Part shown: positions 10,959 to 33,965 of the stretch, piece by piece
Numbering within the stretch: the first letter of the stretch is position 1
How the letters are laid out: every line of letters begins with the position of its first letter
DNA from: Incurvaria masculella
Lineage: Eukaryota; Arthropoda; Insecta; Lepidoptera; Incurvariidae
Length of the DNA stretch: 64,000 bases
Reading direction: 5' to 3'
Assembly: GCA_946894095.1 (NCBI GenBank)
Contig: OX335652.1
Coordinates: forward strand, 12,237,001-12,301,000
Program-made: the position numbers and the translations under genes
Notes under the pieces: model-generated
Seen by the model: the letters and a program-made list of their open reading frames with translations, nothing else
Told to the model about the DNA's origin: nothing
The model's database searches: none

Positions 10959-11016
10959 CAGTACCTGATTGCGTCCTTGGAATCAATTCAGCGACGAGCC
11001 GTTCGCCTTGCGGGGG
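10959..11016 (+). pseudogene. LINE reverse-transcriptase C-terminal fragment
   Basis: The + strand reads QYLIASLESIQRRAVRLAG, matching the LGSLDSIQRRAVRL segment of the LINE at 14405-17980. Only this short coding piece remains before a TTAA MITE at 11043. Confidence 0.65.
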
Positions 11017-11042
11017 AAGAAAAGATGATTTATTAGGTTTGG

Positions 11043-11592
11043 TTAAGGCGGCCCAACCCGGTGGGCCTAACTCATTCGCGGGCACGGTACAAAACCGTGC
11101 TGTTGCGCTCTGGGACCTTCTCTGTTTCAAAGAATAAGACAGGCTACTTGATGAGGAAGATGCAACATGTCCACAAAAAAGACAATGTGCATAGTGTATT
11201 ATTTGGTAAGATTTACGAAAATTTTAATTTCAAAACGACTTATAGCTAAAAGTAAACCACGACCGCTGTAGTCAAAAATCTAACAAAAACCAAATAGATC
11301 ATAAATCTTGATTAAATAAGCGATGTCTGATGACTTATCTTTTTACGATGTTCTTACTTTATCATTGCGTAATCCACCTCCAAAGTTATTGTATAAAACG
11401 CGCAAAAAATTCGAACTTTCGGACCTTATAACTTGAAAACCAAACACAATTTTACAATGCCAATGGTCATCAGACATCTAGTTCGATCGAATAAAGCTAT
11501 TTTGAGCAAAATTTTGGATCTCTGACAAGAAATATGGGCGTGATCTCCTTTCCCCTTTTGTATGGGGAGTTGAGCGGGTTGGGCCACCTTAA
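11043..11592 (-). mobile_element. 550-bp TTAA-bounded MITE, copy D (inverted)
   Basis: Full 550-bp copy in the same orientation as copy C, with ends TTAAGGCGGCCCAACCCG and GGGTTGGGCCACCTTAA. It inserted at a TTAA immediately after a LINE coding remnant (10959-11016). Confidence 0.85.
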
Positions 11593-11843
11593 GTTCGTTT
11601 GGTGTTGATTGATGACCTTTGATTACGTTTATTGATGTTTGATGATGTTTATAGGTGTTCGATAATGTATCATGATATGTTGGTGTTTCAAATTAAAATT
11701 AGGCATTAATATATGAGTCTCTGAGAATTTCCAAAAACAATATTGCATTTTAAAAACCTTCTTTCGGAAAACACGAAAACTAGTCCCTCGGTAGCTCAGT
11801 GTGCGACGCCTTGCGATTCGATAAGCTGGGGAAGCACCTCTGC

Positions 11844-12064
11844 AGGTCTATTCCTGGCATTCAGTAATCAGGAATCCTGAGTCTAGAAAACCGCTTTTAT
11901 AGCGATTTTCAAAGCGAGTTTTTCTACGGAAAACCTTAATTGATTAAAAAAACTATGCTCCGGAATATTTTCGTCAAGAAAATCGCTTTGAAAACCATAA
12001 CCGAAAATCGGTTTTCTAGACTCAGGATTCCTGATTCCTGATTACTGAATGCCAGGAATAGACC
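11844..12064. mobile_element. MITE with ~50-bp terminal inverted repeats
   Basis: The left end AGGTCTATTCCTGGCATTCA continues through TAATCAGGAATCCTGAG to TCTAGAAAACCG. The right end is its reverse complement, with one 7-bp internal duplication (GAATCAG). The ~120-bp core is itself partly palindromic (AAATCGCTTT against AAAGCGATTT-like blocks). Flanks resemble each other only weakly, so the target duplication is unclear. No coding capacity. Confidence 0.8.
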
Positions 12065-12149
12065 TCCTGAGCGCGGTTAGTTTATGTATGGGTGACCATT
12101 TTCAACCGTTGAGGCTGGCCTTGGTTCGGATTCCACGTAAAACCCCTTC

Positions 12150-12235
12150 CTTACCTAATCCCGCCCGGGTTGGTACCATCGCATTGAATAAACGATGGTT
12201 GAAGCGGCAATGTCAATGGCAGTTTGACTTTGACA
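12150..12235 (+). mobile_element. SINE middle fragment
   Basis: CCCGCCCGGGTTGGTACCAT, then CGCATTGAATAAACGATGG and AAGCGGCAATG, match the central part of the SINE family (compare 13048-13098). Confidence 0.5.
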
Positions 12236-12466
12236 GCTTGAAAAGTAAAACCACAGAATAAGTAGAAAACATCTGTGTGGGGTTTGACGTTTTTACGTAA
12301 CTTCGAAGTTCCCTAAACGCCAATTTAGGTGAGATCTCAGACTGACCACTCCAGTACTGATTGGATTTTATTTAGGAAAGGTCTTCCAATTGCGAAGTAA
12401 CATTGTATTGGCTCTGCTTCGCGATTTACGGAGAAATCACGGAATGCAAATGAAGGAATGTAAGGA

Positions 12467-13250
12467 AGGCTCGTAGCCTAGTGGCGCGGCGCGGGGACTG
12501 GCCTAGCGTACCAGAGACCTGGGTTCAATTCCGACAAGCACCACTGTCTTTCTCTTTCCGAGTTCGATAAGTGCATTTCGTCACGAATTCGAGCTGCTCC
12601 ATGGTTCGGAATCCATGTACATCTGTAGGAGGAGGAGGGAGGGAGAGAGGAGGTGTCCATATATCGGCACAAAGCAAGAGCGATACATCGATACAATGCT
12701 CGAATGTTGACTCAAATTATAAAATATAAGGTGTTTTACTGACAAATCAAACTTAATTCCATCTACAAACTTTAGATTTTGTCCTGTGTAATGTTTGCAA
12801 CATTTTACACAAAATCTCATCGTGTAATCGACTGTTCGCTGAAAATTGCGCCGCAGACCATAATATTGTCCCACAACCTAACACCGCCAGCGCCATGTCG
12901 CGAATGACGGTAAGCCACGCCTTCTTATCACGTGGGCCGTGACAGAGACCCACTTGTTGGACACAATACCAGTTTGCCAAGACCATCTCCTCTCTACCTC
13001 CCTCCTCCGTGGTCCCCTTCCCCTACTAGGTGGTAGGGTTTAAGCCCGCCCGGGTTGGTACCATCGCGTTCGATGAAAAGATGGTCGAAGCGGCAATGAA
13101 ATATTGTCCGTGTTTTCCATCCAGTTCAATGTAGCCGTGCTCATAAAGGGAAGGTCCTGGCATGGCACCTAATTCCTTCGGGAATGTGGTGTATTGGGCT
13201 AATATCATAACGGTAGTTGTGTGGTATTAGCCATCCATGTCAGGCCGCAT
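12467..13250 (+). mobile_element. tRNA-derived SINE interrupted by a MITE
   Basis: The head has pol III promoter-like boxes: TAGCCTAGTGGC at 12474 (A-box consensus TRGCNNAGYNGG, 11 of 12) and GGTTCAATTCC at 12532-12542 (B-box GGTTCGANNCC, 10 of 11). The body stops at 12630 and resumes at 13009 (GTGGTCCCCTTCCCCTA), continuing through GCCCGCCCGGGTTGGTACC to GCCATCCATGTC. A 378-bp MITE fills the gap. The 3' end runs into a short A-rich stretch. Confidence 0.75.
12631..13008. mobile_element. 378-bp MITE nested in the SINE
   Basis: The left terminus GGAGGAGGGAGGGAGAGAGG is matched inverted by the right terminus CCTCTCTACCTCCCTCCTCC (12989-13008). The inner sequence recurs without its left terminus at about 48505-48890. 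The joined SINE reads through smoothly, so this is a clean insertion; GTAG/GTGG next to the ends may be the target duplication. Confidence 0.75.
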
Positions 13251-13834
13251 AAAAAAAATTCAACCTGCAGACCTTTTTTGATGCGTAAGTGAGAGAATTA
13301 CTCAACTATTGAAGTATATTTCATTATATTTTATTGTAAACTATGTGTGTGTACTGTTGGTGTGCCATATATAAATAAATGAATAAATAAATTAGTAAAG
13401 TCAAGTATTAGAATATGCGTAATTAGCAAATCTTAATAATAAACTGTGAGCAAATTATAGCTTTCCTACCTATGCATGTATCTCTGAGTTTGCGGTTTTG
13501 TAAGCGTCACAGTGAGACAGCAATACGACAACACCGACCCCTTAGGGAAAGTCCAGAATCGAGGATACATATGACGGCCATTTTATCTTTGCCCCAGGAC
13601 ATAACATGGACTTGGAAGCTTTGTGCAGCGCAATAACTTTGGCGATTTTTTTTTATTCTATTGAAATTTTCGGTGTATGATGCATGGTTTTGGTTTTTCA
13701 GGTCTGACATTTTCAACGTTTTATTTTTCGGAAAGTGATAAAGTAAATGAAAAAAATATATAACGCGTGCAATTTCTTGCTCCCGAGCCAATATTCGGAC
13801 ACAAAGAATTAGAAATGCCGGTTCAATCGAAACT

Positions 13835-14035
13835 TTTTGGAATTCTAGGAATTTTTGAGTCTTTAGTCATCTTAAGAAATCCCAGAATCTTTGATAATCC
13901 TAGGAATCTTCAGTAATCCCTTGGGAATATTTAGTAGTCCTTTAAGAATCATGGAAATCTTCAGGAATCTTTGGAAATATTCAGGAATCTTTGGAAATCT
14001 TTGGTAATCTTTGGAAATCCTTGGGAATCTCACAA
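13835..14035. repeat. Degenerate ~13-bp minisatellite (GGAATCTTTGGAAAT-like)
   Basis: About 200 bp made of imperfect repeats such as GGAATCTT, GGAAATCTT and GGTAATCTTTGG. The last five units (13960-14035) are most regular. No coding sense. Confidence 0.7.
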
Positions 14036-14982
14036 TCACAAGGCAATCCTGGTATTTTTGACTACTGGTAATCTTGGTTTACACTTTGTGCTCGAGTGAC
14101 CGACCCCTCCAAGCGAACTAGCTACTGTCAGTGCATTTACCTACACATTAACTCGTGGCATACATACAAACATATCATCACGCCGTTTTCCACAAGGGGC
14201 AGGCAGAGATGATAGAGCTCTATATGATTCGAATACAGCATACTTATTTCGCTTATTATGCAGCCATCACATGCATGCTTAACGATTACGGGTGCTACGT
14301 ACCCGATCTTTACGAAGTAGGAAAATGTATGACCTTAGTTTAGGTGTACGATGTGTGACTTTAGGCTGACTTTGAGGCTGGAATAAATAGTCGTAACTGA
14401 AACTGTGGGTACCGGCATGTGCCGTGTGGGTACCGGCACGTTAAAAGAATACAAATGGGCCCACTGCATGTCTTCCCGTGCATGTCGTAAGAGGCGACTA
14501 AGGGATTCAGCGTGTGGTAGACCGCAAGGTCGACTGGGTACGCCACCACACTCGGTGATAAGTCACGCCGCCAAGCAGTTCGCTGTGTTCCGGTGTGGAT
14601 CTCGAGGACCCAGTAGCAAGGGGGACTTAGCGACGAAGAGGAGTGGTCCAGTGACTCTAAAGCCTAATCACTGCTTGGGAGTAAGTGATCGACACGATGG
14701 CCAGGGAGACCCGGTAAAACGGGTGCCCGCTGCCCGCCCGCCGAGTAGTTCAGGGCCCGGTCTGTGCCTAACCATCACAGAAGGCTGCACCATCACTCGG
14801 CGCATAATCTCGGAGTGGTCCGTCGTGCCGGTTGGTGACCGGACTGCCGGGGTCCCGGCGGCCACTTCCGGGGGGGACCGGGGGCCCTTCCGTCCATCGT
14901 GTCGGTCACTCACCATCCCAGGCAGATAGTGACGAAGCCACAGAGTTGCGCTTTGACCACAAATCTCCGTTACTAGTCCCCT

Positions 14983-16205
14983 GTGCAACCTCACACCAAC
15001 ACACCAACAAATGAAAGCACAAAAAAGGAAGAACGTAAATTCAGCGGTGCAGATTTCGCGAACATACGGGGGCTGCACACCAATTTGAATGCCGTGCACC
15101 TGCATCTGGAGCAGATGAAGCCGGCCATGCTCTTCCTTACGGAGACACAAATATCACGACCTGCCGACACGTCGTACCTGCACTATCCTGGCTTTACTTT
15201 GGAAGAATCATTCCGTCCAAAGGCCGGGGTGTGCCTGTTCGTCAGGTCTGATATTTGCTGTCGCCGCCTTCTTGCATGGAGGACCCCGAACACTCCGTAC
15301 TTTGGGTCCACGTTGACATGGGGACGGACACGCGGCTGTACGCGTGCCTGTACAGACCGCACAACGGGGACAGGGAGCTTACTCGACTTCTGGAGTACCT
15401 GAGCAAAGCGGCAGACGATGCACAGGCGAGGTTCCCCTCAGCAGAGTTGGTCTTTCTGGGAGATTTTAACGCGCACCATGCGCTGTGGCTAGGCTCCGAA
15501 AAGATTGACTTTGCTGGTAGGGCTGTGCGTAACTTCGCTCTGGCGCACAATCTGACTCAATTGGTGACGCAACATACGCGTATCCCAGATCGAGCAGGTG
15601 ACGCGTCCTCCTTACTGCATCTTCTGCTGACCACCAAACCGGCCGGGTACAAGGTGTCGGTGCTTGCCCCCCTGGGGTCATCTGACCACTGCCTGGTGAG
15701 GTCAACTGTGCCACACACCCAGACCGAGAAACGTGCGACCGGCACGCGTCTGGTGTGGCATTACGAGTCGGCAGATTGGGACGGAATGCGAGAACATTTT
15801 TCCTCCTTCCCTTGGAGGCAACTCTGTTTCAGCACTGTGGATCCGTCGAGCTGTGCGAATGCCGTTTCCGAGGTGATCCAGGGAGCTATGGAACTTTTTA
15901 TTCCCTGCTCCACCAAATCCCTCGGTGGTAAAAGCCAGCCTTGGTTCAACGCGGAATGCGCAGTGGCTTGTTGTACTAAGAACGCGGCCCACCGTGCATG
16001 GTCCCGCGCGCGAACACGACGTGACCCGAATATAAAGGCGCTGAAACAGGCCCTTAACTTAGCCTCCAGATCCAGCAAGAGAGCAATTGCCAGAGCGAAG
16101 TTCGAGCATATCAGCAGGATTGGCGAGAAGCTGATCAGCCACCCTACTGGGAGCCGTCAATTCTGGTCCCTTGCCAAATCTGTGGAAGCCATTGCAGCAG
16201 CCTGA
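14983..16205 (+). pseudogene. LINE ORF2, endonuclease part (frameshifted)
   Basis: The first frame (14983-15250) gives FANIRGLHTNLNAVHLHLEQ, LFLTETQISRP and AGVCLFVRSD, the N terminus of an endonuclease/exonuclease/phosphatase fold with its catalytic Glu in TETQ. After a frameshift near 15250, the second frame gives DTRLYACLYRPHNGDRE, VFLGDFNAHHALWLG and APLGSSDHCLV, carrying the catalytic Asp/Asn and the SDH motif. The linker towards the RT (KSLGGKSQPWFNAEC) follows, and the frame is lost near 16180. The enzyme would nick target DNA, but this copy cannot make it. Confidence 0.8.
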
Positions 16206-17934
16206 CGGATCACTCGCTTTTTCCGCCAAAGAGAAGGCCGACCTTCTCGCGGGCATCTTTGCGGCGAACTCTCGCCTGGATGATGGCGGCTCCATTCCGC
16301 CGACTGTTCCTGGGTGCGAATTCTCTATGCCGAGCATACAATTCCGCTAGAGAGCCGTACGGCGTGAGCTTTCCGCCCTAGACTCCAGGAAAGCGAGTGG
16401 CCCTGATGGTATTCCTGCATTGGTGTTAAAGAAATGTGCTCCAGAACTAGCCCCTGTCCTAACCCGCCTTTACCGCCTATCGTACTCCACTGGATGTGTG
16501 CCAGCTGCTTGGAAATCGGCCAACGTTCAGCCCGTGCCTAAAAAAGGCGATCGATCAGACCCGGCCAACTACCGACCCATAGCCATTACCTCTCTTCTCT
16601 GCAAAGTGATGGAGCGCATCATTAACTCTCAGTTGATGAAGTATCTAGAGAGCAATGAACTTCTCAGCGATCATCAATACGGCTTCCGTCCGAATCGATC
16701 TGCTGGGGATCTCCTAGTATACGTCTCACATGAGATGGGCGATGCGCTCGAAAATCATGGCGAAGGTATGGCTATCGGCCTGGATATTGCGAAAGCATTT
16801 GACCGGGTCTGGCACAAGGCACTGATCTCCAAGCTGCCCTCTTATGGCCTTCCACCCGAGCTGTGTGACTGGATCGCCGACTTCCTGCATGGCCGCAGCA
16901 TAAAAGTCTTGATTGACGGTTGCTGTTCCAAAGCCATGTCTGTGAATGCCGGTGTGCCGCAGGGCTCTGTGCTGTCCCCAACCCTTTTTCTGCTGCAAAT
17001 TAATGATATGCTCAACTTGGGGGACATTGATTGCTACGCAGACGACAGCACAGTGCTAGCCAGGTACGCCAGTCACCAGACCGCTAGCCGGGCTGAAGTG
17101 GAAGAAAATAGGCGGCGTCTCGTTGTTAGACTCGAAGAGACCCTGGAAAAAGTTTCCGAGTGGGGTCTCCAGAACCTCGTTAAGTTTAACGCGAGCAAAA
17201 CACAGGCGTGCGTATTCAGTGCGAAGCGTACTCCGTTCAGCGTGGCTCCGACCTTTCAGGGAACAACTCTGCGTATTGACGACCACATAGGCATTCTTGG
17301 GGTCGACCTGACGCATGACCTTAATTTCGGACGCCATATCGAGGATAAAGCCAAGCTCGCCTCAAAAAAGCTGGGGGTCCTCAACAGAGTGCGTCAGTAC
17401 TTCACGCCTGACCAAAAACTGCTTCTTTACAAGGCGCAGATAAGGTCTTGCGTGGAGTACTGTTCGCATTTGTGGGACGGCTCAGCTAAACACCTGCTTG
17501 GCTCTCTGGACTCGATACAGCGTCGGGCCGTGCGTCTAGTCGACGACCCCGAGGTATCCCTAAATTTGGAGACCCTCCAACTCAGAAGGGATGTAGGGTC
17601 TCTGTCTGTCTTTTATCGTCTTTACCACGGAGAATGCTCGTCGGAGCTGCATAACGCTGTTTCTCCGTCCCCTTTTTACCTGCGGTCAACGCGGAACAGG
17701 GAGAAAATGCACACATTCACAGTCGACATTCCAAAAATAAGAACCCACCGATCTTCTAGATCCTTCATCTATAGGGTCGGAAAACTATGGAATGAACTCC
17801 CTTCCGATGTATTTCCCCCAAAGTACAACCTGGGGTCCTTCAAACATGGTGTGAAGAAGCACCTGGCCGGCCGGCATGGTTTTCGCAGCCCCCCTGTAAA
17901 TTCGAAATCCCATGGGCGTCGTCGGGCACCTTAA
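16206..17934 (+). pseudogene. LINE ORF2, reverse transcriptase part
   Basis: From 16206 the protein continues DGSLAFSAKEKADLLAGIF, has one stop at 16348-16350, resumes with SRKASGPDGIPALVLKKC, and stays open to 17934 (504 residues from 16420). RT motifs are intact: NYRPIAITSLLCKVMERI, GLDIAKAFDRVWHKAL, GVPQGSVLSPTLF and the catalytic CYADDSTVLARY. After the thumb comes the segment LLLYKAQIRSCVEYCSHLWD and then LGSLDSIQRRAVRLVDDPE. The frame ends within 50 bp of the poly-A tail. Confidence 0.9.
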
Positions 17935-18295
17935 GATGTCCTGGCGTACGCCATATGCCGCGCTTAACATAAAAAAAAAAAACTAAGACTAACTAAAAGT
18001 AGTACTAATTGTGACGTCAATTCGCATTACTTTGAGATTTCGTCCATACAAAATGTGTCAAAGTGACGTCACAAAGTCTTAGTTTCTGATGCGACTATTT
18101 ATCTCAACCTAAGTTTCCATATATTTCAAATGTCAGCCCCTCATTAAAAAAAATATATATTTAAGAATGAATGCCGGTTAATAAATATTGTTGATAGCGC
18201 TACACTTTGCGACCTTAAAACGTTTAAAATGCAGATTAATTAAATAGTTTAAATTTAATTTATGCTATTAGATATTAACAATGCGGGTGTATTAT

Positions 18296-18420
18296 TTTTA
18301 ACCGACTTCACAAAAGGAGGAGGTTCTATGTTCGTTTACTATGTTTTCAAGAGATGCAACTGTACAAAAGACAATGTAAAAAATTCAATTACATAACGTA
18401 AATGTATGCCGAATGAAGTT
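18296..18420 (+). repeat. Fragment of the ACCGACTTCA repeat
   Basis: TTTTTAACCGACTTCACAAA followed by AGGAGGAGGTTCTATG matches the start of the repeat at 43580. The remainder has diverged. Confidence 0.45.
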
Positions 18421-18763
18421 CGCAAAGATATATGTATCGATCTAAAATTAAGTTTCCCCGGGCGTCCCGATAGAGGTATCCAACAACGAGATGGTAAATA
18501 AAAGTAATTTCATGCAATGGAATTAGACTCTTAATAGAGAGTCGAAAAATGCTGGCACGATTCGCAGAAGTCCATCGTAACGAGCCGAGCTTAGATCGCT
18601 TGGGTCATCCATGTCTAATCTGGGGGAATCCACAGTCAGTGACCCACGACTGTGTTAATAATACCCCAAAAGCTCGCATGACAGCATGAATTAACGAGAG
18701 AACGCCCCACCGTGTGAACTGTGTTAAGGAGGCCGGGTATTGCCCGACACGGTATTCTCCCGT

Positions 18764-18785
18764 CGTTAGGTTAGGTTAGGTTAGC
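18764..18785 (+). repeat. Short GGTTA (telomere-type) repeat
   Basis: GTTAGGTTAGGTTAGGTTAG gives about four units of TTAGG, the insect telomeric pentamer. It is the right end of a mixed-composition block (18545-18790) that I cannot assign. Confidence 0.6.
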
Positions 18786-19782
18786 ACCACGCCAGGATCC
18801 TCAGCGTGTGTAATGTCGGCGGCGTCACATTCTATGCCCGAAGACATAAAGGGAACTCATAATATATTAAAACTCTTTGCGCCACTCTTTGCAGAGTCGG
18901 CAGTTTGAGTTGTCAGCATTCAGCACTGTTGCAATTCAGAAGGATAAAAATGGACCACTTTCGAATAAACTCTGGAGACCGTCTGTAGCTTAAGCAATGC
19001 AGCAGAAAAACATGGTTACATCAGTGCAGCCGTAGACTAGGATGGACCATAATCTTCCAAAAGCGCATTACTAAAGTGACAAAGTACACGCCAAACGTAT
19101 ATGGGCATCGCGCGTAGAAAAAACGCTCTTAAGACTTCTAGAAAAAAAGCATAGAGTACACGCGCGAGCTTTACAGATAGATAAATTTAAGTTGGGCACG
19201 AAGCACATATACACGACAATACTACCTTCAGAATTTCGCTCGTTATTATTTAATGATTATATGATCTTCTGTGGAACTTGCATCCTTTATTACTCCGCAT
19301 CCTACAGCTATATCCGACCGAAGGACCCGCCGCCGCAGAGAATCAGAGCTGTTTTTTTGGTTGACATTAAGCTTTTGAGAACGAACCATTTCCCAAAATA
19401 ATTTCTTTGCCGCACTGCCAGGATATGAAACTGTCTGCCGACGGATGCCTTTCGTCATACGTATAACCCGGCAGTATCATAGAGTAATTTGCAAAAACTC
19501 GATAGTTCAGCGATAGTCCGCTAACTCGCTGGCATGGTGCCTCGCTGAGAGTGGTTTTGCGAGGCGAGGTTTACTGCTGAGAATTTTCTGAGTACCTTTG
19601 GTCCTCAGCACAGCCACCCATACCGATTTTACAAAAACATATGAACTGTTATATTGAACTTTAAGAATGTGACATCAACGCTAGATTGGCTAGGTTGTAT
19701 ACGACCACAGATCACAAACCCCTCAACAAACACATGCGTCAAGTTTTAAAAATAAATAAGTTTCTTTTTTATGTAATTGGAC

Positions 19783-20046
19783 ATGGATGGATCATACCAC
19801 AACCACCACTAATACCCACCACACCGCATTCTCTGAGGAATTATTTGCCATGCCAGGACCTTCCCTTTAAGATCACGGCTACATTAAATTGGATGGAAAA
19901 CACGGCAAATATTTTCATCCAATATTTCCGAACCATTCGAGACGAAATGAACTTATTCAACTCATAAAGTGTTGCATGAACGGGGCGGGTATCGTACCCA
20001 TGACCTCTGGCATAGAAGGCAAGTCCCCGCGCCACTGAGCTACGAA
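19783..20046 (-). mobile_element. tRNA-derived SINE, reverse orientation
   Basis: Reading the reverse strand, the copy runs from a head of TAGCTCAGTGGCGCGGGGAC, through GGTACGATACCC, to the core AAATATTTGCCGTGTTTTCC and the CCTGGCATGGCAAATAATTC block. Mutated, and lacking the central GGTAGGG segment. Confidence 0.6.
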
Positions 20047-20867
20047 CCATTTACTATACATGAATAAGATGGTTGAAATGTTAAGATCTGCAGGCTCAAA
20101 TCACATGACCGCGACTGCTCGATTGGGCGATTGATCGAGTGAGGTCATATGTAAGGAAATATTGCCAAATTGGTAGTCGCTCTACAGAAATGATATCACG
20201 TCGTTAATAGCCGACTATTGATATTTCTAAGTCAAGAACCTAATATAGTTCTTTACTTGTGGTTATCCTAATCTCTTGAAGATAACTGGTGTTCTTTACA
20301 TTGCACTCATACGGTGTGGTTCAGCCCACCTGATACGAGATGAATATGGCATAGAAACGTTTGCGCGTGATTCATTCTTACTCAAATTCCGCCTGTCTGG
20401 TCGATGATTACCATCTGATCTATAATTTGCCACAAACGGCCGCTCTTTGCGGTGTTGCAATTATTTTTAGGAAAATCCAAAACGACTGCTCGGCCGACCG
20501 ATACAAGCTGAGTCACAGTGCTCTGTCCTCACGCTGCTCGCAGATAATTCCAGTCGCTCGCCAAACCCGGTCAGCTCCGTGGACAACTCTCTGTGCCGTC
20601 CACGCGTATATTTTCGCGAGTTTTATGATATCACGTTATTACTATGATTCTACGGTATGTTGTTTTGAAGCAATTTGTTCGTTTTTTATTGCATGTGGAT
20701 AGAGTGCAGTGTGAAAAAACTTAAGTTTGAACGAATCGAAAGAACGTTGTTGTATTTTATGAGTATTATCAATTATTGTAGGTTGCAACGTAATGGTGAA
20801 ATAGTCCAAATGACCCTGATTTTGGTGTCAGCTTTAATCCGCCTAAGCCTGGATTTCATCAAGTGCT

Positions 20868-21180
20868 GATTATTATTTTTGGCCACTTAAAGGGCCTTCA
20901 TTAGTGAAGTGCTGGTTATATTATACTGGTTAGGGCCTTTTTTACTTTCTGCTGATTAGCTTAATCGCCACATATTAAGAGAATTCATTAGCACCTTGCA
21001 TTCAATACCAGTACAAGATAATCAGCACTTTAGTAATAAAGGCTCTTTGAGTGTCGATTAAAATTAATCAGCTCTTGGTGAAAACCAGGCCAACAATTGC
21101 AAGCTGGTAAGAAAGGCCCTCCTTTGTCAAGACGATTAAGCTAATCGGCAGATGGTGAAACAGACCCCAAATTGCGCAAC
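20868..21180. repeat. Dispersed repeat sharing a core with 59146-59290
   Basis: TGCTGATTAGCTTAATCGCC, ACCAGTACAAGATAATCAGC and CTTTAGTAATAAAGGCTC recur, with small changes, at 59146-59240. The block contains several inverted copies of GGGCCTT / AAGGCCC and AATCAGC / GCTGATT, giving a partly palindromic, MITE-like structure. Ends not resolved. Confidence 0.5.
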
Positions 21181-22160
21181 ACTGTTCAATAATTTGGTCT
21201 TAGAAAATCTGGGAAGGAGTCACAGTTGTTACCACGAGAAATAACACAATTAAATAATAGGACATTTTTCATAAAAGCTAAATCATTCTTTTAATTTCAA
21301 ATACCCTTGGAAACTATGCTAAAGTTACGGCAGTGTCTGCTGTTTCAACATGCATATCGGAAGAATGTTTCCAACGAATAAAATAATTCCTCATATTTTT
21401 TAAAGAACATTTGAAATATGGCTCTTAGAATCTATTTACAGCGCAAATAAAAAAACAAATGCATTTAGTACCTACATTTGCAATTAGTACAAAATATATC
21501 TGTTACTATGGATTTAAATATTGTTTCTCTACCTGGCATAATAAGGTAAATCAATAAATTACTCAAAGATGTACGTTTATTTCAGTCGCGCTTGAGTTTC
21601 CTTATGAGAAAGTATAAATGTCAACTAACAAAACATGTTTTATGACCATGTCGGCTTGTGTGAGGCCTTCTATGTGGATTTCTTAAATTGTAAAAAATAT
21701 ACTGGCCTACCATTACATGAACCTTTGAAGTATTGGGGTACAATATATAATAATCCTCTTTCTGGCGCTGTTGGGTAAAAAATAGAACTATGTTGCAACG
21801 GACACAGTAAAGTGCTTATATACCAGTTCTTTATTATGCAGTATATACCATACAATCTTTTGTTGATCCTTTAAAAAGCACCTCCTTTTTCCAGTTAAAT
21901 GCAAATGTATTTCACATGTACATTTTTTTATATAAATTTAAATACACTGTTCAGAACGGTTTCATTTAAATTAACTAACTTTAAACTATAATGATAGTAA
22001 AAAGACATATATAAGGAAGTTAAACTAAATAAAATTATTCCTCCAGACCGGCTGATTCCACCACAGTCTGCATTGCTTCTTTGAATTTCGAGCCCAACAC
22101 GCTGTACGAAGAAAGAATGCACAGTTCGTTTGTTGTTTAAACAATCCTTCCTCCCTTCAG

Positions 22161-25100
22161 ATCGACGAAATATATTCGGAGATCCTGTACAAGATCCTGC
22201 ACAATGTGGGAGGCGGTGACGTAGGCGCCAGGGCAGGGCAGCTGGCGATGCTGTCCTACGTGCAGGATGCGTTCAAGGTCAGCCCCGAGCGACACGAGCA
22301 GCTACTCACACACGTCGAGGTCAAGGGACCGCCGACGATCACGCTCAACGTGGAGGTCGTAGAGGCCAAAGAACTCGTCTCGAAAAATCCCAACGGCCTC
22401 AGCAACCCTTTCGTAACAATCTACCTCATGTCTAATACAGATCTGAGGTACGACACTTCGGTGAAGCTGGATACCTTGAATCCAACTTGGGAGGACCACT
22501 TATCACTGTGAGTTTTACCTTTGTTTATTTGGCTAGAAACGATCCCATGGTCCGCAGATGGGCTCCTTGGCCTCCGGGGCCAAGATGCTCATGTTGCAAT
22601 CCATCGACAACTGTTTCATATTCATCTTCTTCATCTCTAACCGCTCTTAGATAGGTGGAGATCAATCTCTTGAAGATAACTTTGAAGGACATTTTAAGTT
22701 CTTCTTCTCAATTTAATCCCGCTCGCTCATAATTTGCTGTAACACACGCCGTGGAAAGTCAAGATCAAGCATAATGGAGGACTCGTCTCGAAAAATTCAA
22801 AGCTCCTTTTCAGCCCCTGTAAACCCTTGACAGCTATGCGGTAAAACACTTCGGTGAGATTCGAATACCACTCATCACTTTAAGGTATTATGCAACCAGA
22901 TATGAATGGCTAATACCACCACCATACCAATACCATTATGATATTAGCCCAATTAGGTGCCAAGTCAGCTACAGCTACAGCTACACTGAACTCGATGGAA
23001 AACACGAACAATGTTTCATTGCCGATTAAATCATGTTTCATCCAATGCGTTGGTAACAACCCGGGCGGGTTTAATCCTGCAACATAATAGGGGAAGGAAA
23101 CCTACAGTTTTAAATGGTTTCCGAACCATTTGTGACGAAATGCACTTATTTAACTCAGAAAGAGAAAGAAAGTGGTTCATGAACGGGGTGAGGATTTGAA
23201 CCCATATCCTCTCGCATGAAAAGCAAGTCCTCTAGCCCCTACACCACGTACTAAGAGCGTATATACTTAATTGATAATGACTAATGGGATAGGTATACGG
23301 ATTATTATTTAGGTGGCGTCTGTTTATATCAACCATGCCTGGTTCATGGATGTGAATAATGGATTAATTAAGCATATATTAAGTAACTTTTTCACCTCCA
23401 TGGCCTAGTTGCGATCAATCTTTCTTTGTATTGACATTAAAATAAATGTCACCATCAATGGTTGCTTGAATAATAACGTCGTCTTTAAAAACTGGCCAAT
23501 TGCAAGTCAGACTCGCACGCAAAGGATTCCGTACCATCTTACAAGATTAAACACAATACAATATAGTTTTTTGTATGGGGCCCCCCTTTCATTATTATTA
23601 TTTATTCATTTTACCTATTTATAGCGGCAAAATAAATACACATTCTGTGAAACTTTCAGCTGCCTACCTATTACGGTTCATGAGATACAGCCTTGCGACA
23701 GACAGACGGACAGACGGACGGACGGACGGACAGACGGGTGGACAGACGGGTGGACAGACGGAAGGACAGCGGAGGCTTAGTAATAGGGTTCCGTTGGCAC
23801 CCTTTGTGTACGAAACCCTAAAAAATAAAAATCAAAGTTTGTGGACATGGAGGATAATAAAAAAAATAAACGTATTTTTCTATAATTTCAGGCCTATTCG
23901 AGAAAGTCTGAGCAAAGATTCCCTCTGCTTAGAAGTATGGTAAGTTTTTTCTCACCCTATTAGCAAAGTGAATTTTAGGGATAAAGCGAAGGACAGCTCG
24001 GGAAAATGTTCGCATTACTTTTTTTATCTACTCATGCATTCACAATTCTCATTCATACTTCTCAATTTCTCAATTTTATTTCATACTTCTGTTGACAATC
24101 ATTACTCCATATAATTTACTCATATTTATGCACGATTTTATGGTATAAGTAAATAAATATGCGAGCTAGACTTTTAGAGCTGCTAGGCACTTGTTTAAAA
24201 TCACACTAGAATTAGGCTTCAAATAAAATTCTGAGTTTTCTTGGCCAAATTATGTAGCTTATTTTCGTTAAGCGTAAAAAAGGCTACATAAGCTGTTGGC
24301 ATAGGACACTAAATTAAGTATGTATATTCATGAAAATAGCTTAGTGAAAATCTCATATTATTTTGTTACGGTCACATCGCAAAAAGAGAAGACGGGACCT
24401 TATGGTCTGGCTCCGGTGTCTGTGAGTCACACCATTTTGTCCCGCATTGTTCTCCTATCAACGGTTGTTGATGGGAATTGGATTTCGAAGCCGGATATCT
24501 AGAGCGCTAATTTTGTATGAAATTGCAAAATAATGACCAGGCGAGTGCGGAATTTTCGTTTGGCACTCTGTCTCGTAGAGATATTTCCTACATAGCCCAT
24601 GTCCAGCAGCAATGGGACCATCCGCACGTGAAAAGGTTTACGTATGATTTTTTTTATGTAATGCAGGGACTTCGACGCGGAAGAATCGGTGAAGAAGAAG
24701 ATGGGCAAGATATTCGATGTGAAGGGTGTTCGGGGACTGCGCAAGCTCATGAAGGAGATCGCAGTGACTGCCTCTACGGGCAAGCACAGCAACAAGCTCA
24801 TCGGAAAGGCCAATATTCCTCTCAAGGTGAAATACTTTTAGTGGCAAACCAATGCACACAATTCAGCTTCGCCTGTCATCCTGTTAACGACTTGCGTAAG
24901 TTGCCAGTGTTCACAATTTGGGAAACTGGAAACAAAATGATTGTGCATTGAGTAAGACTATTTGGAAGTGATCACAAGATATAAGAAATGTGAATATAAT
25001 ATGCCAATTATATGCCAATAATATTGGATCGATTGTGCCTGCTTTGCGGTCCGATTGCATCTTATTCCGGTATACTGTATATTATATTGTATCTTTGGGA

Positions 25101-28100
25101 CACTTAAGGAACACCTGGAGTCATCAAAATCTATTCCATTCCAAGAAGTTAAAATTATATTTAAAAACTCACTATAACTACACATAGTTTTAACTTAACA
25201 CTTACCTAATGCAGTATTAAAAAGGTGGATAATAATTTGTTTGCTGATTTTCGTCCTATTTCCTAGCGTACTTTATGCAAGTCAATATGAGCAAAACATT
25301 ACTGAAAAAGAAAACTCTGGGAACAAGTTCTGATTATCTTACTAAAGTTAAATAAAGTTTAAAAGTATTTAATAGTCGAGGAGCCATGCATAACTTTAAA
25401 AATCCTAAACAAAAAACTCATCTCGAAAAATAATGTTGCATGCCATATTGTTCAAGACATGCGGTTTTCTCCCCAAAATCTGTCATAAAGCTGGGTTTAC
25501 AACTTATGATACCAGTCAAACAGCTATTGTCTCCGTTGCAGTCGATCCCGACGAGCGGCTTGACGACGTGGTACAGCCTCGACAAGAAGAACCGACCGCA
25601 GCGGCAGGGCGTGGTGAAGGTGCGGCTCAACTACTCGTCGGAGAAGAATCCACAAGTCGCTGAGCAGGAGCATCGTCACCTGCTGCGGGTTCTGCTGCTA
25701 CATGAGCTGGAGCACTCGAGGGTGAACTTCTACTTTTTTAAGGATTTGAATTAATTTGATAGGATAAAAGGATAAAACATAAATAAGGAGAAAATAAACA
25801 GAAAATATAAATCTAAATAATTAAATTAAAATAAATAGCTCCTCCATTGGGACTGTTGACATTGTCCCAATGACCGAAGCAGCGTTCCCCCGCTGAATGG
25901 CCAAGCTTATGTTTTGGGTAAGGAAAGCTCTGGCACGACGGTCTCCGGACTCCTCAATGAGCAGTTTGCCCAACTGCTGTACCAGTTCTTTGGCGTCCGG
26001 GCTCCATGCCCCAAGGGTCTCCACGGCAAAAGCGATACACTCGTAATTTGTTTTAATGTCACTATACTTTATTCTACATCTATTGCAATCAACTTTATGG
26101 GCTTCGTATGGACATCGAACATCCTATTCAACTAGACTATTTCAAATTTTATTAGTAGGTTCTGTCGTATTGAAGGATCGATAACGTAAATCTGTTAACG
26201 AGTCAGGACACATTTATTAATGTAAGAGCGCGCGTACCAGCCAGTACATTTGGTTAATACAACACCTCGTGTGGTTGATGTTAATAAGCCCAATACACCA
26301 ATTCAAACTAGCTACCATGCCAGGACCTTCCATATATTGCACGGCTATATTGAACTGGTTGAAAAACCAAAAGTCATTTTTTAATGCGCTTCGACTATCG
26401 TCCATTCAATGCGAGGATATCAACATGGGCAGGATTAATCATATTAAGGAACCTATGGCTCTTGAGACACACGGAGAAAATCCATTGAGACTACCTAGTA
26501 TTTAATGTTTGCTTATGATAAAATTACGTTTAAAAAATTCAGTTATATTATTATTTTCTTTCTATACTCTCGACTTGAGAACTTTTGAAGAACCATTGTA
26601 AAGCGAATATCCAATATTAAAGCTGATACTTATGCAGGGTAGCAGTTATGCATGTATATTTTTTAGGTTATCATATGTTCGCTTATAAATGACAGATGAC
26701 TAGAAACATGATAATTCTGATTCATGATTTCTGTCCATTATCCTTGAACAATATTTTTACCCCTTTTTTGAATTTCAGGTTGCCCGATACTGGTGGAGCG
26801 GCAACTTCAGTTTCCAAGCTGAAAGCATCATCTCCCAACACGTTTCGCAAAGCAACCTGGGCGAAGCTGAAAAGTACCTGTCCCAGTGGGCGGTCTTCTG
26901 CGGCATCATGGCAGACCATCCACTCAGTTTCGCTCTTTTCAACTTTCTTCTGGACCACCTTATCAAACCGATACAATCTGGCGCCGTCGGCCAGGAAAAA
27001 GTCATCATGTTCTGGGATGGTACTAGAAAACTGCTCCCGATATGCTTTAATCTAGTCACTAAACGGCGAAGGAAAATCGCTGGCAATACAACTGTGATCA
27101 GGAATCTCAAAGAAGTGCTGAAGATCCTCAACAGATTATCGGGAATGAATGTCCCAGAGGGTTTGGATCTGTTCCCCGCGAGCTCGTACGGTTGGGTCAA
27201 GCGGAGCGCAGAAGGCTTGAGCCTGAGTATCCACGAGGTGTTGTACCAAAGTGCGGCACAAGGCGCTTCCGACTGGTTCGTACACATCCTTGATAACACC
27301 GTGGGCAACGACTCTAGCGAGGAGAATGAGCTGCAGCACATCATACGAGTCGTGCAGCTAGTACGCTCTGATCTGCAGAGGGCTGTCGAATTCTATGATA
27401 ACATATTTGTAGGGTCAGTATCTCAGTATTTGTGTTACCTAGTGAATAATTAAAGGAGTTTTATCTGTCTTGCTGCCATCTATAAATATGAATGGTTGGT
27501 AAAACTTTCAACTGCTTTTTTACAAATGATTGATGAGCTAATTGTTAGTTCTTTCAATGACAATGCAAACGCTGGATCATATATACACGCTGAACCGAAA
27601 GTTGGTTCTTTGAAAAGAGAGATGCAGAAATGAATAATGGCTACAAAGGTGAAGAGACTAAGAGTATTCTTGGCCAATGTTTTCAGTTTCCAAGTTTACC
27701 TAACGAAAATGTTACGCCATTTTCACCAATTGCAGTATAATGAACTTCCCGTACGCGAAGAGTCTGTACGGCATGTATGAAGGCAAAATAGCGAGCTTGT
27801 TAGAGCCGAAGGTCGTGCGGGTGTGCCGGAACTTGAAGCGGCCTCAGTACGAAGAGGAGTCCGACTGGCAGATTATTGGGACGTCTCAATCAACCAACCA
27901 GTCTCTCGTTACGGGAACAAAGCTTTTCGAGCTCTACCTAACTTTGCAGAGATTTTTAACGTTAGTACATGCACAATTTCCTTATATCTTTAAATTAAAT
28001 GGTTTTGTTAGTCTGGAATATTCTCGCGGCTTAACCCGTCGGTTAAACAGTCGGTTTTCCATTGACTTATCCCAGTTTCTTACCCTGTAGGTAATTTAGA

Positions 28101-31100
28101 ATAATATTGGTACAAATATAAGTTATCGAGCCGGATACAATCAAATATGTTGTTCTCAAGCTTTAAGAAACAGACAGACAAAAAGACGAACAGATAGACT
28201 GAAACAGATTTTACTACAGAGTTTGTAAGAGTGTATTATAAATGATTATGTTGTTTGATAACTCGACTGGTCAAAGAGAAAAATTGAGAGAGTTGGGCTT
28301 TCGGCTAACGCTTACAATGCTATAAAATTAAACGCTATTAAAGTCGTATATTATAATTACAGAGAACCTGTCAAAACTTAGTACGAGATTAGCACCGGAC
28401 TAATCATACAAATACCTGTTTAGTCCGGCGAATGAAAGGTAGTCTATTATTCATTTTATGTTTGTTTTTGCAGATTTGGCCAAGACCTGAATGCGACAGA
28501 CTGGCAATCATATGAGATAACAAAGTACCACAATTGGTTCCACGCTGGCGTAGCCCATTGGTGCGATATTGCCTCATTCAAAGCCTTAAAACTTATTAAC
28601 AGAGCTGTTGAATTGGACGACCTTATACCGGTGCACGAAAGCACTAAATACAGCAGTTCGGCAGTAAACACTCTGGGTATATTCTCCCAGATCAAGATTG
28701 ATTGGCAGCAACTCGCTTGGCCGGATGTGGAGGGTTCTTACACTTTTGTTGCTAAAATTGTTGACGTAAGTGTTTTTGGTTTCATAACATCACCGGATAT
28801 GGATGGCTAGGATAACGTCTACAGTAGTTTTTAGTTATTTTGCCAAGAAGATTAATGTTCTGTTAAAGCTTTCCCTATATTTTCTACATTTCAGATTACG
28901 AAAGTGTATGCCGCTGCTCGGGAGGCCAGGATTTCTGAGTTATTTTTTGTCATGAGGATGGAGGGAACTGGAAGAATAATATTCGTAATCTCATTCTGCT
29001 TGGCAATCATAATACAATATGCTATTCACGTTACAGGATATATGCCAATGCAGCTTGTTCTATGCTGATAAGATGGCGGCTCGTATTCGCAATGCCGGGA
29101 TCTCGTCAAGTGTTCACCAATCCAATCAATTTGAGGTGACCATCGAGTGGTGTATCGCTATTAACAACATCGACTACGTAAAACAATCTTTGAGACCGTT
29201 TGTGGCTCAACTCGGCATTGACGAAATCATTCAGAAGATGTACAAGCTAAAGTCTCCGGTTGAGGCTCTGAGGTGATATGTATGTTTCTTATTAATTAAA
29301 TTTGTAGACGATTTCAACTTTACCTATATTTTTATATTTTTCCCAGTCTAAGTTAGTCATGGCTTGAAAAATAAATTGTCCGCAACCCCTTACAAATTGC
29401 TTACTGACTATGCACTTCATTGTAATTCATAAAAAAGCGTTTGCTCTCGAATTTCTACCAAAAAGTCAGTCTTTTCACCCGTTCACCACTCTGAAATAAA
29501 AAAATCAAAATGTTTTATTTATTTTTTAAAGTTTGATCAGAATTACCTTTCACGGATGAATGATTATTTTGTCATTTCATTTCGTTACTTCGTTCATATC
29601 ATATTTATTTTAATTGTATTGTTTTAGATGCAACGAGACATTGCAGAATGTTGTGGATAATGCCATAGACATAGTAGAAAATAAGATATTAGTAGTTCTA
29701 GAGAAAATGGTCAGTAATGTAAGTATCCCACTGAATGAACATGTGTACATTATTAGAGAATTATCCGTAAGGAGAAGGCTCCCTGAAGTTGAATTAAATA
29801 ATTCATGAAATCATATTTCATAACAAAAACGGTGTAATTTAGCCAGGATGTGCATTTTAGGCATGAATACATGTAGATAGATGATTAAGTATCAAAATTT
29901 CGACCCCACAGTGATTTTTTTATTCTGTAAATTGTATATTTAATCATTATTAAACTATACTAGACTATTGATTTTATGGTAGCAAAGTTTTAAATCTGGT
30001 ATCATCGTATACATGTGAACATTTACCTCAACATTCTCACACTGCTTTTGTTTCCCTAAAATAACAAATTATACTTTATCGACCGTAAAATAAATTATGT
30101 CATGTTGTGTTAAGGCCAAAAAGTAACCTAAAAGACAAATACTTTCAGATGATGCCATCTATCACACGTTTCCTAATAGAGAGCGCAGAGATAATGAACA
30201 ACGACTCTTCCAACATTGAACCTGTCATGCTGTATCTAGAGACCAACCTGAATACGCTTTACAGCAATCTCAACCACGATAACTTCTCACGCACCCTGGA
30301 CATAACTTGGGAACTGATCAGTGAAGTCTTGCGCGAATTAGTTCAATCGAATTGGGAGGTGAGGATGATTTCCAAATAAGTAATAGGTTTGGATCGTCAA
30401 ATAACTTTCGTTTTGTATGTGAAATGCTATAAAAGTACTCAATAAGCCAAAACGGTTTTAGTTTTGTATTCCAACCAAAGATTAAATCTTGGTTACATAG
30501 GTTGCAACATTACCTATATAACATCTTCCTGACATTTATTTTGAGTTACTTTTGTAGTTATGTGTTTTATCAGAAATACATTTTAATAAAATAAAAAAAA
30601 AATGCAGATACCAAACAAACAAACAGAAACAAACGGTTTTATATTCAAAGTATACATTTTGGGTAGTAAATTCGATGAACACATTGAGGCTGAAATTAAT
30701 TAGTTGAATTTATAATGGCAGTACTATTTTAGAGGGCTCTAAAGATGCAAAGATTACTTTCAGAAAAGAAGACCTCCGTTATTCTTTGGCAATCTCCACA
30801 AATGCCTTATGATAATGGTGCATTCGTTCCGGAAAAACGTCGAGGAGGTCTACTCTAGCGAGAAACTCGAGCGAGTGGTGTATCTCCTAAAGCTTCATGG
30901 CATGGAGACGCAAGAACTGATCCATCAGTTTTACTTAGAGCGGTGGAAAGATCAGCAGACGGTGGTGGAACCCATGCACGGCATGGTTACCGTTCGAGCG
31001 CAGTTCTTGAAAGACAACCTCGAGTTAGAGATCATAAACGCAAGGAGTCTGCCGACAATGAACTCTAACGGTGAGTATTTTATTGTTTTTTCTCCTTCCA

Positions 31101-33177
31101 AAGAGTACATCCTTCTTACTTCTCTTTTATTAGGGAAATAGTCATAGGTAGCTAATACGGCAACAGATGTCATGATATTAGCCAACTGTCCAAAGGCTAG
31201 GTTTTCCTAATATCGCGCGGCTACATTGAACTATATGGAAAACGAGGATAATTTTCATTGCCGGTTCCATCTTTTATAATCAAATGCAATGGTACCCGGC
31301 TAAACTCGGGCAGCATTAACCTAGTAAGTAGATAAAGGGACCTACAGAGTTTGCTTTTATTTTCACATTTATTTGTTCTCGTAGTATCCTTTCTCGCTCG
31401 ATGTTTCGTTCGTAACGTTGCGGAAGTCGACTTCTCCCTATGTCATATTTAGCGTCTATGTAATCTTAACAATGGTTGGTCGAAGCAATAACTAAAAACT
31501 CAATAATATTCGCAGGACTTTGCAACTCTTATGTGCGAGCGACGTTGATGCCGGAAGACACATTCGCTAGTACGATGAAACCCAAGACTAAGACACACAA
31601 AAAAAACCTCTTCCCGCTGTACGAGGAGGTGTTCCACATGTAAGTTCACACTAACTGCATGTCTGTCTTTAAAGTTACGTAACAGTCACTGCCGGATCTT
31701 TAGAAATGGATTTTAAGGTCAACACAAACAATAAAACTTAAATGACAATCTGCTGCATGCACAGCGTCCTCTGGGATTTCTCCCTTTACAATGAGGTGTA
31801 TTTTGGCGCAAACTCGGTCGATATCAACCGAATGGAAGCCAAGGGGTTACATGAACAACCACTGCTAAATTCAATTTAATTGGTTCACTGATGCACGTTA
31901 TGACTCTGAATATCTGGTATTCTCGTGCTCCTTTTCATAAATTCGCTAAACATTCTTTTTGTTTTAGCCAGCTGACGGCGGAACAGTTTGCTGCGAAGGA
32001 TGGCCTTCTACAGCTGGTGGTGAAAGATAAGGACTTGTTCAGCGTCTGCAACCGTGTTATAGGCGAGGCGTACTTGCACTTTAGCGAGATTCCGGCCACA
32101 TCCGCACCTCTCAGCTCGCTGCCGCAAGTGCACCTCTCGCTCACCAGACCGACCAAGATCGGTATGCCATTTTATGTTCAGCTAAGTGGTCCTTCTTTAC
32201 TCTCAAAGTTTACAGCAGTCTGCGGGCACTGCGGGGCCACTACGCGTTAGTGGTCCCGCAGTGACTATGTAAAGCACTATGTGAGCATGGAAATATCACC
32301 GTGAATGGACAGTAGTGCCTGCACAAGTCGCTGCTGCGATTGTGGGAAAACCGTACTAGCGTATTAAGTATTACTGCGCATCGTGTTGTACGATCGTTAA
32401 TTGAAGTACGTTCGGTATCGACACATGAACACTTTAACATCCCCGCTCTCCTCCGCTGTGAAATGTGTGAAGAAATGCGGGTGATAGGTCGTTTTTAGGG
32501 TTCCGTACCCAAAGGGTGAAAACGGAACCCTATTACTAAGCGTCCGCTGTCCGTCCGTTCGTCCGTCCGTCCATCCGTCCGCACGTTCCTGGACGTTGGC
32601 ACCCTTTGGGTGCGGAAACGTAAAAAGTCAGAAAGAACGCTAAGGAAACAAAGTAACAGCGCGGTCGGGGCCGCGGGCGCATTTTACGGGGCTCCGCGCG
32701 ATTGATTTCTAAAAACCGGCCAAGTACGAGTCGGGCTCGCACACGAAGGGTTTCGTACCATCGAACAAGATTTAACACAAAAAAATCACGTTTTTTGTAT
32801 GGGGACCCCCTTTAATTCGTATTATTCATAAATGTTACCTATTTGTTGTTATAGCGGCAAAAATAATACACACTCTGTGAACATTTCAGCTGCCTACCTA
32901 TTACTGTTCATAAAATACAGCCCTGTGACAGACGGACGGACGGACAGCGGAGGCTTAGTAATAGGGTTCCGTTTTCACCCTTTGGGTACGGAACCCTAAA
33001 AACGCAACTGACCCTAACGGCGCCGGGACCCCCAGCTAGTGTGAAATATAAAGATATGCTTTTTGCACATTTTCAGAAGGAGACACAATGAACGCGCTCC
33101 AGAGCCGACATGGCGATAAGATGGCTCGAGACTTCTTGAAGAAACAGAGGCAGAAGGTCACCGCCACCAAACCATGA
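22161..33177 (+). CDS. Munc13-4/BAIAP3-like gene, copy 2 (C2A-MUN-C2B, nearly complete)
   Basis: Fourteen exons splice in one frame: 22161-22507, 23892-23939, 24667-24826, 25542-25721, 26779-27413, 27736-27960, 28474-28765, 29037-29272, 29628-29718, 30149-30358, 30764-31070, 31516-31639, 31968-32161, 33077-33177. They total 3,150 nt, or 1,049 residues plus stop, close to the ~1,090 of human UNC13D. The visible protein opens with the helix IDEIYSEILYKILHNVG. C2A follows (about residues 50-190), then the MUN/MHD region (about 250-730, with FHAGVAHWCDIASFKAL and DICQCSLFYADKM), then C2B (about 800-1000), then the basic tail ARDFLKKQRQK. Loop 1 of C2A is KNPNGLSNPF and of C2B is MNSNGLCNSY: the usual Asp pair is Asn in both. 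The loop-3 acidic residues (VWDFDAEE, VKDKDLF) remain. The first visible exon begins at an acceptor, so the start codon lies upstream, somewhere in 8.7-22.1 kb, and was not found. No frame break was seen, so the gene looks intact. Confidence 0.88.
22906..23256 (-). mobile_element. tRNA-derived SINE, reverse orientation (intronic)
   Basis: The reverse strand has the tRNA-like head TGTAGGGGCTAGAGGACTTG, the B-box-like GGTTCAAATCC, the core GTGCATTTCGTCACAAATGG, and the tail ending near CTAATATCATAATGGTATTG and GCCATTCAT. It sits in the first visible intron of the copy-2 gene. Confidence 0.65.
23487..23828 (-). repeat. Dispersed ~300-bp repeat with AGGGTTCCGTACCC-type ends
   Basis: Reverse copy of a family also at 32706, 46020, 49550 and 57771. 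Shared parts are CCTACCTATTACGGTTCATG, a (GGAC)n tract at 23698-23762, GGCAAAATAAATACACATTC and CAGACTCGCACGC. One end carries GGAATCC/TAGGGTTCCG inverted motifs. The superfamily is not clear to me; it is non-coding. Confidence 0.65.
25830..26040 (-). pseudogene. LINE reverse-transcriptase C-terminal fragment
   Basis: The reverse strand reads IAFAVETLGAWSPDAKELVQ, then GDRRARAFLTQNISLAIQRG and NAASVIGT before a stop. The motifs VETLGxW and SLAIQRGNAAS are, from memory, the C terminus of a family of animal LINE polymerases. It lies in an intron of the copy-2 gene, antisense to it, and is not a host exon. Confidence 0.6.
26266..26345 (-). mobile_element. SINE tail fragment, reverse orientation
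   Basis: TTAATAAGCCCAATACACCA and CTACCATGCCAGGACCTTCC are the reverse complement of the SINE 3' block. The rest is lost. Confidence 0.5.
31180..31330 (-). mobile_element. SINE fragment, reverse orientation
   Basis: ATATTAGCCA, CGGCTACATTGAACTATATGG and TTTTCATTGCCGGTTCCATC match the reverse of the SINE middle and 3' parts. Intronic in the copy-2 gene, just after exon 30764-31070. Confidence 0.5.
32497..33001. repeat. Two opposed fragments of the AGGGTTCCGTACCC repeat
   Basis: A + strand start (TTTTTAGGGTTCCGTACCC at 32495, followed by (GTCC)n) is followed from about 32706 by a reverse copy (GGCCAAGTACGAGTCGGGCT to GGTACGGAACCCTAAAAACG at 33001). The pair lies in the last intron of the copy-2 gene and could fold back. 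Confidence 0.6.
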
Positions 33178-33943: not shown

Positions 33944-33945
33944 AT

Positions 33946-33965
33946 TGGTGTCAGAAGCGGGGATT
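33946..33965 (+). other. Primer binding site (tRNA-Leu-like)
   Basis: Two bases after the LTR the sequence TGGTGTCAGAAGCGGGGATT is complementary, with about one mismatch, to the remembered 3' end of insect tRNA-Leu (CCCACTTCTGACA plus CCA). It primes minus-strand DNA synthesis. Confidence 0.65.

Follow-up and report, generated by a model that had tools for sequence, protein, structure and literature searches.

Two copies of a Munc13-4-type unc-13 gene lie in tandem on the same strand of the Incurvaria masculella genome, one with all four of its loop-1 calcium-position aspartates and the other, as the original prediction proposed, with none. In the downstream gene (copy 2), Asn occupies both loop-1 calcium positions of the C2A domain (residues 76 and 82) and of the C2B domain (residues 905 and 911). 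On the basis of sequence comparison and the behavior of human mutants, we consider copy 2 likely to be a functional, calcium-uncoupled paralogue of staccato/unc-13-4B, generated by tandem duplication of a 14-exon gene body in this lepidopteran lineage; it probably acts as a docking factor or a brake.

Tandem copies of a 4-type unc-13 gene

The window, that is, the whole 64,000-nucleotide stretch analyzed here (C12:12237001-12301000, where C12 is contig OX335652.1 of a 552-Mb, 31-contig assembly), contains the 3′ end of copy 1 and the body of copy 2, with 13.4 kb between them. The copy 2 model comprises 14 body exons on the plus strand (22161-33177), with GT-AG borders at 13/13 introns and 1046 codons plus a stop, and has zero internal stops. 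Exon 1 (22161..22507), which has a Pfam C2 match, encodes an N-terminal helix and the first half of C2A including loop 1; exon 2 (23892..23939) carries C2A as far as loop 3 (LEVW/DFD, with the slash marking the splice junction), and exon 3 (24667..24826) contains C2A loop 3. Exons 4 (25542..25721), 5 (26779..27413), and 6 (27736..27960) are followed by two exons of the Munc13-homology region, exons 7 (28474..28765) and 8 (29037..29272), and then by exons 9 (29628..29709) and 10 (30149..30358). Exon 11 (30764..31070) terminates within C2B loop 1 (MNSN/G), exon 12 (31516..31639) encodes the remainder of that loop (LCNSY), exon 13 (31968..32161) contains C2B loop 3, and exon 14 (33077..33177) ends with the stop codon TGA.

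The body of copy 1 also has 14 exons and starts at C12:12228111; its open frame, for which we took the 5′ part from the same genome, runs to 1056 residues. Exons 1 to 9 of this body precede the window on the contig (C12:12228111-12235348); they were placed by the lengths of the copy 2 exons (exon 6 by alignment), and AG/GT borders were afterwards found on all of them. The remaining exons fall on the plus strand of the window: exon 10 (1600..1809), exon 11 with the first part of C2B loop 1 (4644..4950; TDSN/G), exon 12 with its second part (7037..7160; LCDSY), exon 13 with C2B loop 3 (7477..7670), and exon 14 ending with TAG (8618..8714). Body exon lengths are identical between the copies in 12 of 14 cases, the exceptions being exon 6 (258 bp in copy 1 and 225 bp in copy 2) and the last exon (97 versus 101). 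Copy 1 exon 6 is itself followed by two more partial tandem copies (C12:12232104-12232817; period, ∼268 bp), of which the first is near-identical and the second more diverged.

In its domain layout, the copy 2 model is of the Munc13-4/BAIAP3 type, in that Pfam matches C2 in two stretches and C1 in none, and this membership is supported by phylogeny and exon structure. It aligns with human UNC13D in three stretches and has full-length matches to insect unc-13 4B/staccato proteins. The Pfam MUN domain (PF06292) gave no score in the copy 2 model, as was also the case for many orthologues among those listed. A six-frame search of the genome with the copy 2 protein returned at least 29 matches, 28 of them inside the two C12 copies and one, weak, on contig C14, and we therefore take it that the genome holds two copies of this gene.

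Several other features surround these genes. In the stretch between the copies (8715..22160, plus strand), our searches recognized no unc-13 first exon. Frames for an endonuclease (PF14529) and a reverse transcriptase (PF00078) of LINE-like type lie there at 15252-17934 (+), and a second such pair lies at 36333-39011 (−), its endonuclease match (37437-39011) falling under the Pfam cutoff. A 707-residue frame at 40315-42438 (+) resembles an LTR retrotransposon, with a reverse transcriptase end, RNase H, and integrase; long frames at 62996-63901 (−), 39315-40310 (−), and 33922-34698 (+) have no Pfam match. Between the first coding exon of copy 1 and the next lies, upstream of the window, an aldehyde dehydrogenase (ALDH)-like frame (C12:∼12208167-12209738), identified by a tblastn match to orthologue record P0022. 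The ALDH domain (PF00171) is fused with unc-13 in records P0022, P0035, P0044, P0093, and P0116, which suggests either that the nesting is conserved or that predictions have been fused.

Calcium-ligand residues in loops 1 and 3

Loop 1 of copy 2 C2A reads KNPNGLSNPF and is contiguous in the DNA (22383-22412), while that of C2B reads MNSNGLCNSY after GT-AG splicing of an intron that follows the first base of the Gly codon (31070/31516). Copy 1 C2B, split after the same base of its Gly codon (4950/7037), reads TDSNGLCDSY once spliced; all three motifs are as originally predicted. The four Asn codons of copy 2 are AAT at 22386 and AAC at 22404, 31061, and 31524, and the two Asp codons of copy 1 C2B are GAT at 4941 and GAC at 7045. 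Recovery of copy 1 C2A from upstream of the window yielded KDPNGLSDPF with both Asp present, giving copy 1 all four.

Loop 3 had been described as unchanged in both copies and as reading VKDKDLF. The Asp pairs are indeed kept, but this motif represents C2B loop 3 only (7529-7549 in copy 1, 32020-32040 in copy 2), and in copy 2 it lies just beyond the interval in which the original prediction had placed it (22380..31560). Loop 3 of copy 2 C2A is instead VWDFD, split by the intron at 23939/24667 and with both Asp retained. Copy 2 has accordingly lost the loop-1 Asp of both C2 domains while keeping all four loop-3 Asp, whereas copy 1 carries the acidic ligands of loops 1 and 3 in both domains.

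These positions are nearly invariant among the listed orthologues. In an alignment of 120 listed rows of the 305 found, residues 76, 82, 905, and 911 are Asp in 119/119, 119/119, 117/117, and 118/119 aligned rows, respectively, the sole non-Asp row (Thr) being P0084, an isoform misaligned at that site. Most of a further 59 fragments do not extend to the sites; among those that cover a given site, 14 have Asp at 76 and two another residue (P0167, P0179), 16 have Asp and one Gly at 82, three have Asp at 905, and one each has Asp and Phe at 911. The loop-3 Asp of C2A (133 and 135) are present in copy 2 and in 119/119 rows, and those of C2B (969 and 971) in copy 2 and in 118/119 and 117/118 rows of the 120. 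Asn occurs at none of the four loop-1 sites in the 120 listed orthologues and 59 fragments, which excludes the alternative that the Asn pair is general in insects. Neither an orthologue nor a transcript of copy 2 was among the matches listed in our protein searches, and no fragment carries the Asn.

Elsewhere copy 2 retains 100 of 113 conserved columns of the Munc13-homology region. It departs at 31 of the 268 columns conserved at 97% or above, all four loop-1 sites included (P = 0.00015), and at 27 of 264 such columns outside those sites. The changed sites that are strictly conserved include two next to C2A loop 3 (A137E and E142K) and one, F608D, within the Munc13-homology region at a position that aligns with Thr in human UNC13D.

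We also asked how far the coincidence of the four changes exceeds chance. The body of copy 1 has 59 Asp, of which 36 are kept in copy 2 and 10 have become Asn, and the 10 include the full set of four from loop 1 (P = 0.0005 if changes are placed at random); the probability that all four would be altered in any way is 0.019. Among Asp columns conserved at 97% or above, 6/16 are changed in copy 2, four of which are the loop-1 sites (P = 0.008). These tests provide moderate evidence for a specific loss, because they are post hoc, the sites having been picked after they were noticed, and because Asp to Asn outnumbers every other Asp change in copy 2, six of the 10 cases lying outside loop 1. The contrast with loop 3 (four of four Asp kept) points in the same direction.

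Divergence, constraint, and the start of copy 2

The two copies are sisters, with support of 99/91 in a tree of the shared C-terminal region and an SH-aLRT value of 100 in a quick full-length tree from which the four columns were left out. In these trees, both fall inside the lepidopteran branch, outside Plutella and the rest and inside row P0001. Among named proteins, copy 2 likewise best matches those of Plutella and other Lepidoptera, and identity to Plutella is 65% over the whole model for copy 2 and 81% for copy 1. The copies differ from each other at 250 of 1045 aligned sites (76% identity), and these differences are uneven: polarized with Plutella, 177 are derived in copy 2 and 17 in copy 1 (56 undecided), with similar imbalances when P0001 (182:19, 48 undecided) or a caddisfly (135:24, 90 undecided) is the reference. 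Branch lengths for copy 2 and copy 1 are 0.48 and 0.014 in the C-terminal-region tree and 0.43 and 0.005 in the full-length tree, and overall amino acid changes are about tenfold more numerous on copy 2.

Copy 2 is nevertheless constrained as well as fast evolving. Pairwise omega between the copies is 0.116 over 1045 codons (dS = 1.15), with regional values of 0.075 to 0.133, and in the 305 shared C-terminal codons an omega of 0.085 is strongly favored over 1 (twice the log-likelihood difference, 175). No stop has arisen in copy 2, where 67 to 100 nonsense changes would be expected under neutrality if dS on its branch were 0.5 to 0.75. With its open frame, splice sites, and purifying selection, copy 2 has the features of a functional gene; relaxed selection, one of the regimes originally suggested, is not supported for the gene as a whole, given its omega and lack of stops.

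How copy 2 begins is a separate question. Its exon 1 has no in-frame start codon before the nearest upstream stop. Copy 1 has two alternative 5′ ends, both with counterparts in orthologue proteins: a set of N-terminal exons belonging to a long isoform, and a short first exon. Both the short exon and the final exon of the long set finish on a complete codon ahead of the GT donor, a phase shared by the acceptor in front of IDELY. Copy 2 keeps the phase-0 acceptor (CAG/ATCGAC) that these alternative N-terminal exons of copy 1 use. Searches for a copy 2 first exon, which could miss short or diverged exons, gave nothing convincing with orthologue N termini (for which E values were too good, owing to an artificially small database size), a best E value of 0.53 for the short form and no match for the long form with two N-terminal HMMs over the whole window, and, for the first exons of copy 1 itself against 8715-22160, only a 13-residue match near 9603-9641 (best E, 0.09) that we find unconvincing. 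Two of the three long-isoform N-terminal exons were searched against the genome and occur once each. Comparison of the copy 1 5′ region with 8715-22160 gave 16 short DNA matches, which we have taken as dispersed repeats.

Copy 2 may therefore start from a new first exon, from an internal Met at residue 30, or from the first exons of copy 1 by long-range splicing. Since its own first exon was not found in these searches and the acceptor has the same phase, shared promoters may feed either body: the locus might be one gene with two exchangeable bodies, with transcripts from copy 1 promoters carrying the calcium-sensing body or, when its 14 exons are skipped, its calcium-blind counterpart. We regard this arrangement as rather unlikely, though if true, splicing would choose whether a vesicle tether senses calcium, with the blind form as a built-in brake.

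Alternative explanations were weighed against the reading of copy 2 as a functional calcium-uncoupled paralogue. The least probable, to the point of being nearly negligible, is that the Asn pair is normal for the insect gene or reflects an assembly error: Asp is found in the aligned rows of listed orthologues and in copy 1 of the same genome, and an error is unlikely because it would have to occur separately at each of four codons, spread over three exons, in a gene that is otherwise intact and diverged. We found nothing in support of either version. Scarcely more probable is RNA editing. One A-to-I event turns an AAT or AAC codon into Asp, all four codons are of these kinds, and an edited protein might switch between calcium-blind and calcium-sensing forms; against this, the best duplexes within 2.5 kb of the four codons (−36.6, −44.5, −34.1, and −40.0) are ordinary relative to 50 exon controls (median, −38.6; best, −50.8), and copy 1 encodes Asp directly. 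That copy 2 is a pseudogene or dying duplicate is also very unlikely, for although neither a first exon nor a transcript was found in the searches above and its protein has changed roughly ten times as much as that of copy 1, the 1046 open codons, 13 intact introns, low omega, and shortfall of nonsense changes all argue otherwise.

Two further possibilities deserve more weight. Under local relaxation or drift, copy 2 would have adopted a role in which calcium played no part, and common G-to-A changes would have eroded the ligands, their loss itself unselected. In favor of this are the prevalence of Asp-to-Asn among Asp changes in copy 2 (10/59), its lower third-position G+C (0.65 versus 0.79 in copy 1 over 305 codons), and the fact that C2A has the highest regional omega (0.133); it fits less well with the change of four of four loop-1 Asp to Asn alongside four of four unchanged loop-3 Asp, or with omega values for C2A and C2B (0.133 and 0.085) near those of other regions (0.075 to 0.123). 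We judge it possible but doubtful, and because it concerns the cause of the loss, it is compatible with calcium uncoupling, so that the two are not mutually exclusive. Alternatively, copy 2 could be constitutively on, its neutral loops imitating the calcium-bound state and binding acidic membranes calcium-free for continual priming or tethering. Copy 2 is in fact less acidic than its relatives: net charge is −3 for the body (−24 in copy 1; −27 to −8 in rows P0001-P0052), +4 for C2A (−2 to −1 in the same rows), and 0 for C2B (−7 to −2). With Asp-to-Asn changes also present outside loop 1, this lower acidity means that the change extends beyond the loops; loop 1 supplies two charges per C2 domain, and the remaining changes are scattered, 52 sites being more positive and 36 more negative, a protein-wide pattern that may reflect general drift. 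According to a review, loop Asp repel membranes until calcium neutralizes them, and Drosophila Syt1 with Asp-to-Asn changes in C2A still supported release but failed to clamp asynchronous fusion (PMC8164606). The corresponding substitutions in human Munc13-4, however, cut or abolished calcium-stimulated membrane recruitment and did not rescue exosome release (PMC6080937), and we think a constitutively active copy 2 improbable.

Proposed function and known systems

The four Asn of copy 2 align with positions 155, 161, 969, and 975 of human UNC13D chain 9la9_A, which, after subtraction of an offset of 28, we infer to be D127, D133, D941, and D947 of human Munc13-4. In PMC6080937, D127N/D133N in C2A inhibited the calcium-dependent SNARE interaction and D941N/D947N in C2B prevented calcium-stimulated membrane binding; membrane recruitment stimulated by calcium was reduced by the C2A changes and eliminated by those in C2B, and exosome release was not rescued. 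A preprint describes a mutant with two Asp-to-Asn changes in each C2 domain that localizes normally to granules and docks but fails in fusion and that, when overexpressed, blocks stimulated crinophagy (PMC12425082).

By analogy with these human mutants, neither C2 domain of copy 2 would bind calcium at cellular levels, given that two acidic ligands of each domain come from loop 1. Copy 2 may still reach vesicles and bind SNAREs via its largely conserved middle region, and this conservation combined with the lost ligands leads us to expect a protein that, like the human mutant, would tether or dock without calcium triggering. Beside a calcium-sensing copy 1, it would then be a calcium-independent docking factor and, if made in the same cells, possibly a brake that competes for docking sites. 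Some observations sit less easily with calcium uncoupling. Copy 2 is more than a counterpart of the human point mutant, since the 27 other conserved columns at which it differs include A137E and E142K; Drosophila SYT4, as described in PMC8164606, sets a precedent in that loss of ligand Asp does not always abolish binding; and the first exon of copy 2 was not found in our searches, nor its orthologue or transcript among the listed protein matches.

Lysosome-related secretion is placed under calcium control by Munc13-4-type proteins, and Asp-to-Asn substitution at these four residues is a laboratory tool for uncoupling the two. If the reading of copy 2 as calcium uncoupled is true, the natural occurrence of all four substitutions in a protein maintained by selection next to an intact sister would indicate that docking is useful without the calcium function. 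Copy 2 would also offer a ready test system for a docking-only form as a brake versus an always-on tether.

Surprise at such a protein is limited by the fact that other C2 paralogues are already known to have lost calcium ligands; what appears to be new here is the case of a 4-type Munc13. Our search of the open-licence literature found no report of ligand loss in a 4-type Munc13 and nothing on Munc13 duplication in Lepidoptera. SYT4 and SYT11 (in which C2A D3 is Ser), SYT12, and SYT14 keep their C2 domains but have lost ligand Asp (PMC8164606). Loss of ligand Asp is thus common to these synaptotagmin paralogues and copy 2, but they belong to another family, the ligand affected in SYT4/11 is a different one, and copy 2 has lost the same loop-1 pair in both C2 domains. 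In Munc13-1/2, the C2A domain binds no calcium and mediates protein contacts (PMC5496627), but only that one domain is concerned, whereas in copy 2, a 4-type protein, ligands have been lost from both C2 domains following duplication within Lepidoptera. Insect staccato/unc-13 homolog 4B proteins share the same body as copy 2 from end to end; they differ in having Asp in the aligned listed rows where copy 2 has Asn, and copy 2 is without a recognized first exon. A parallel in the loops themselves is with the calcium-dead mutants of human Munc13-4 (D127N, D133N, D941N, and D947N), which carry the same four substitutions at aligned positions; those are engineered point changes in a vertebrate protein, whereas copy 2 is a natural protein that differs from its sister copy at nearly a quarter of its sites.
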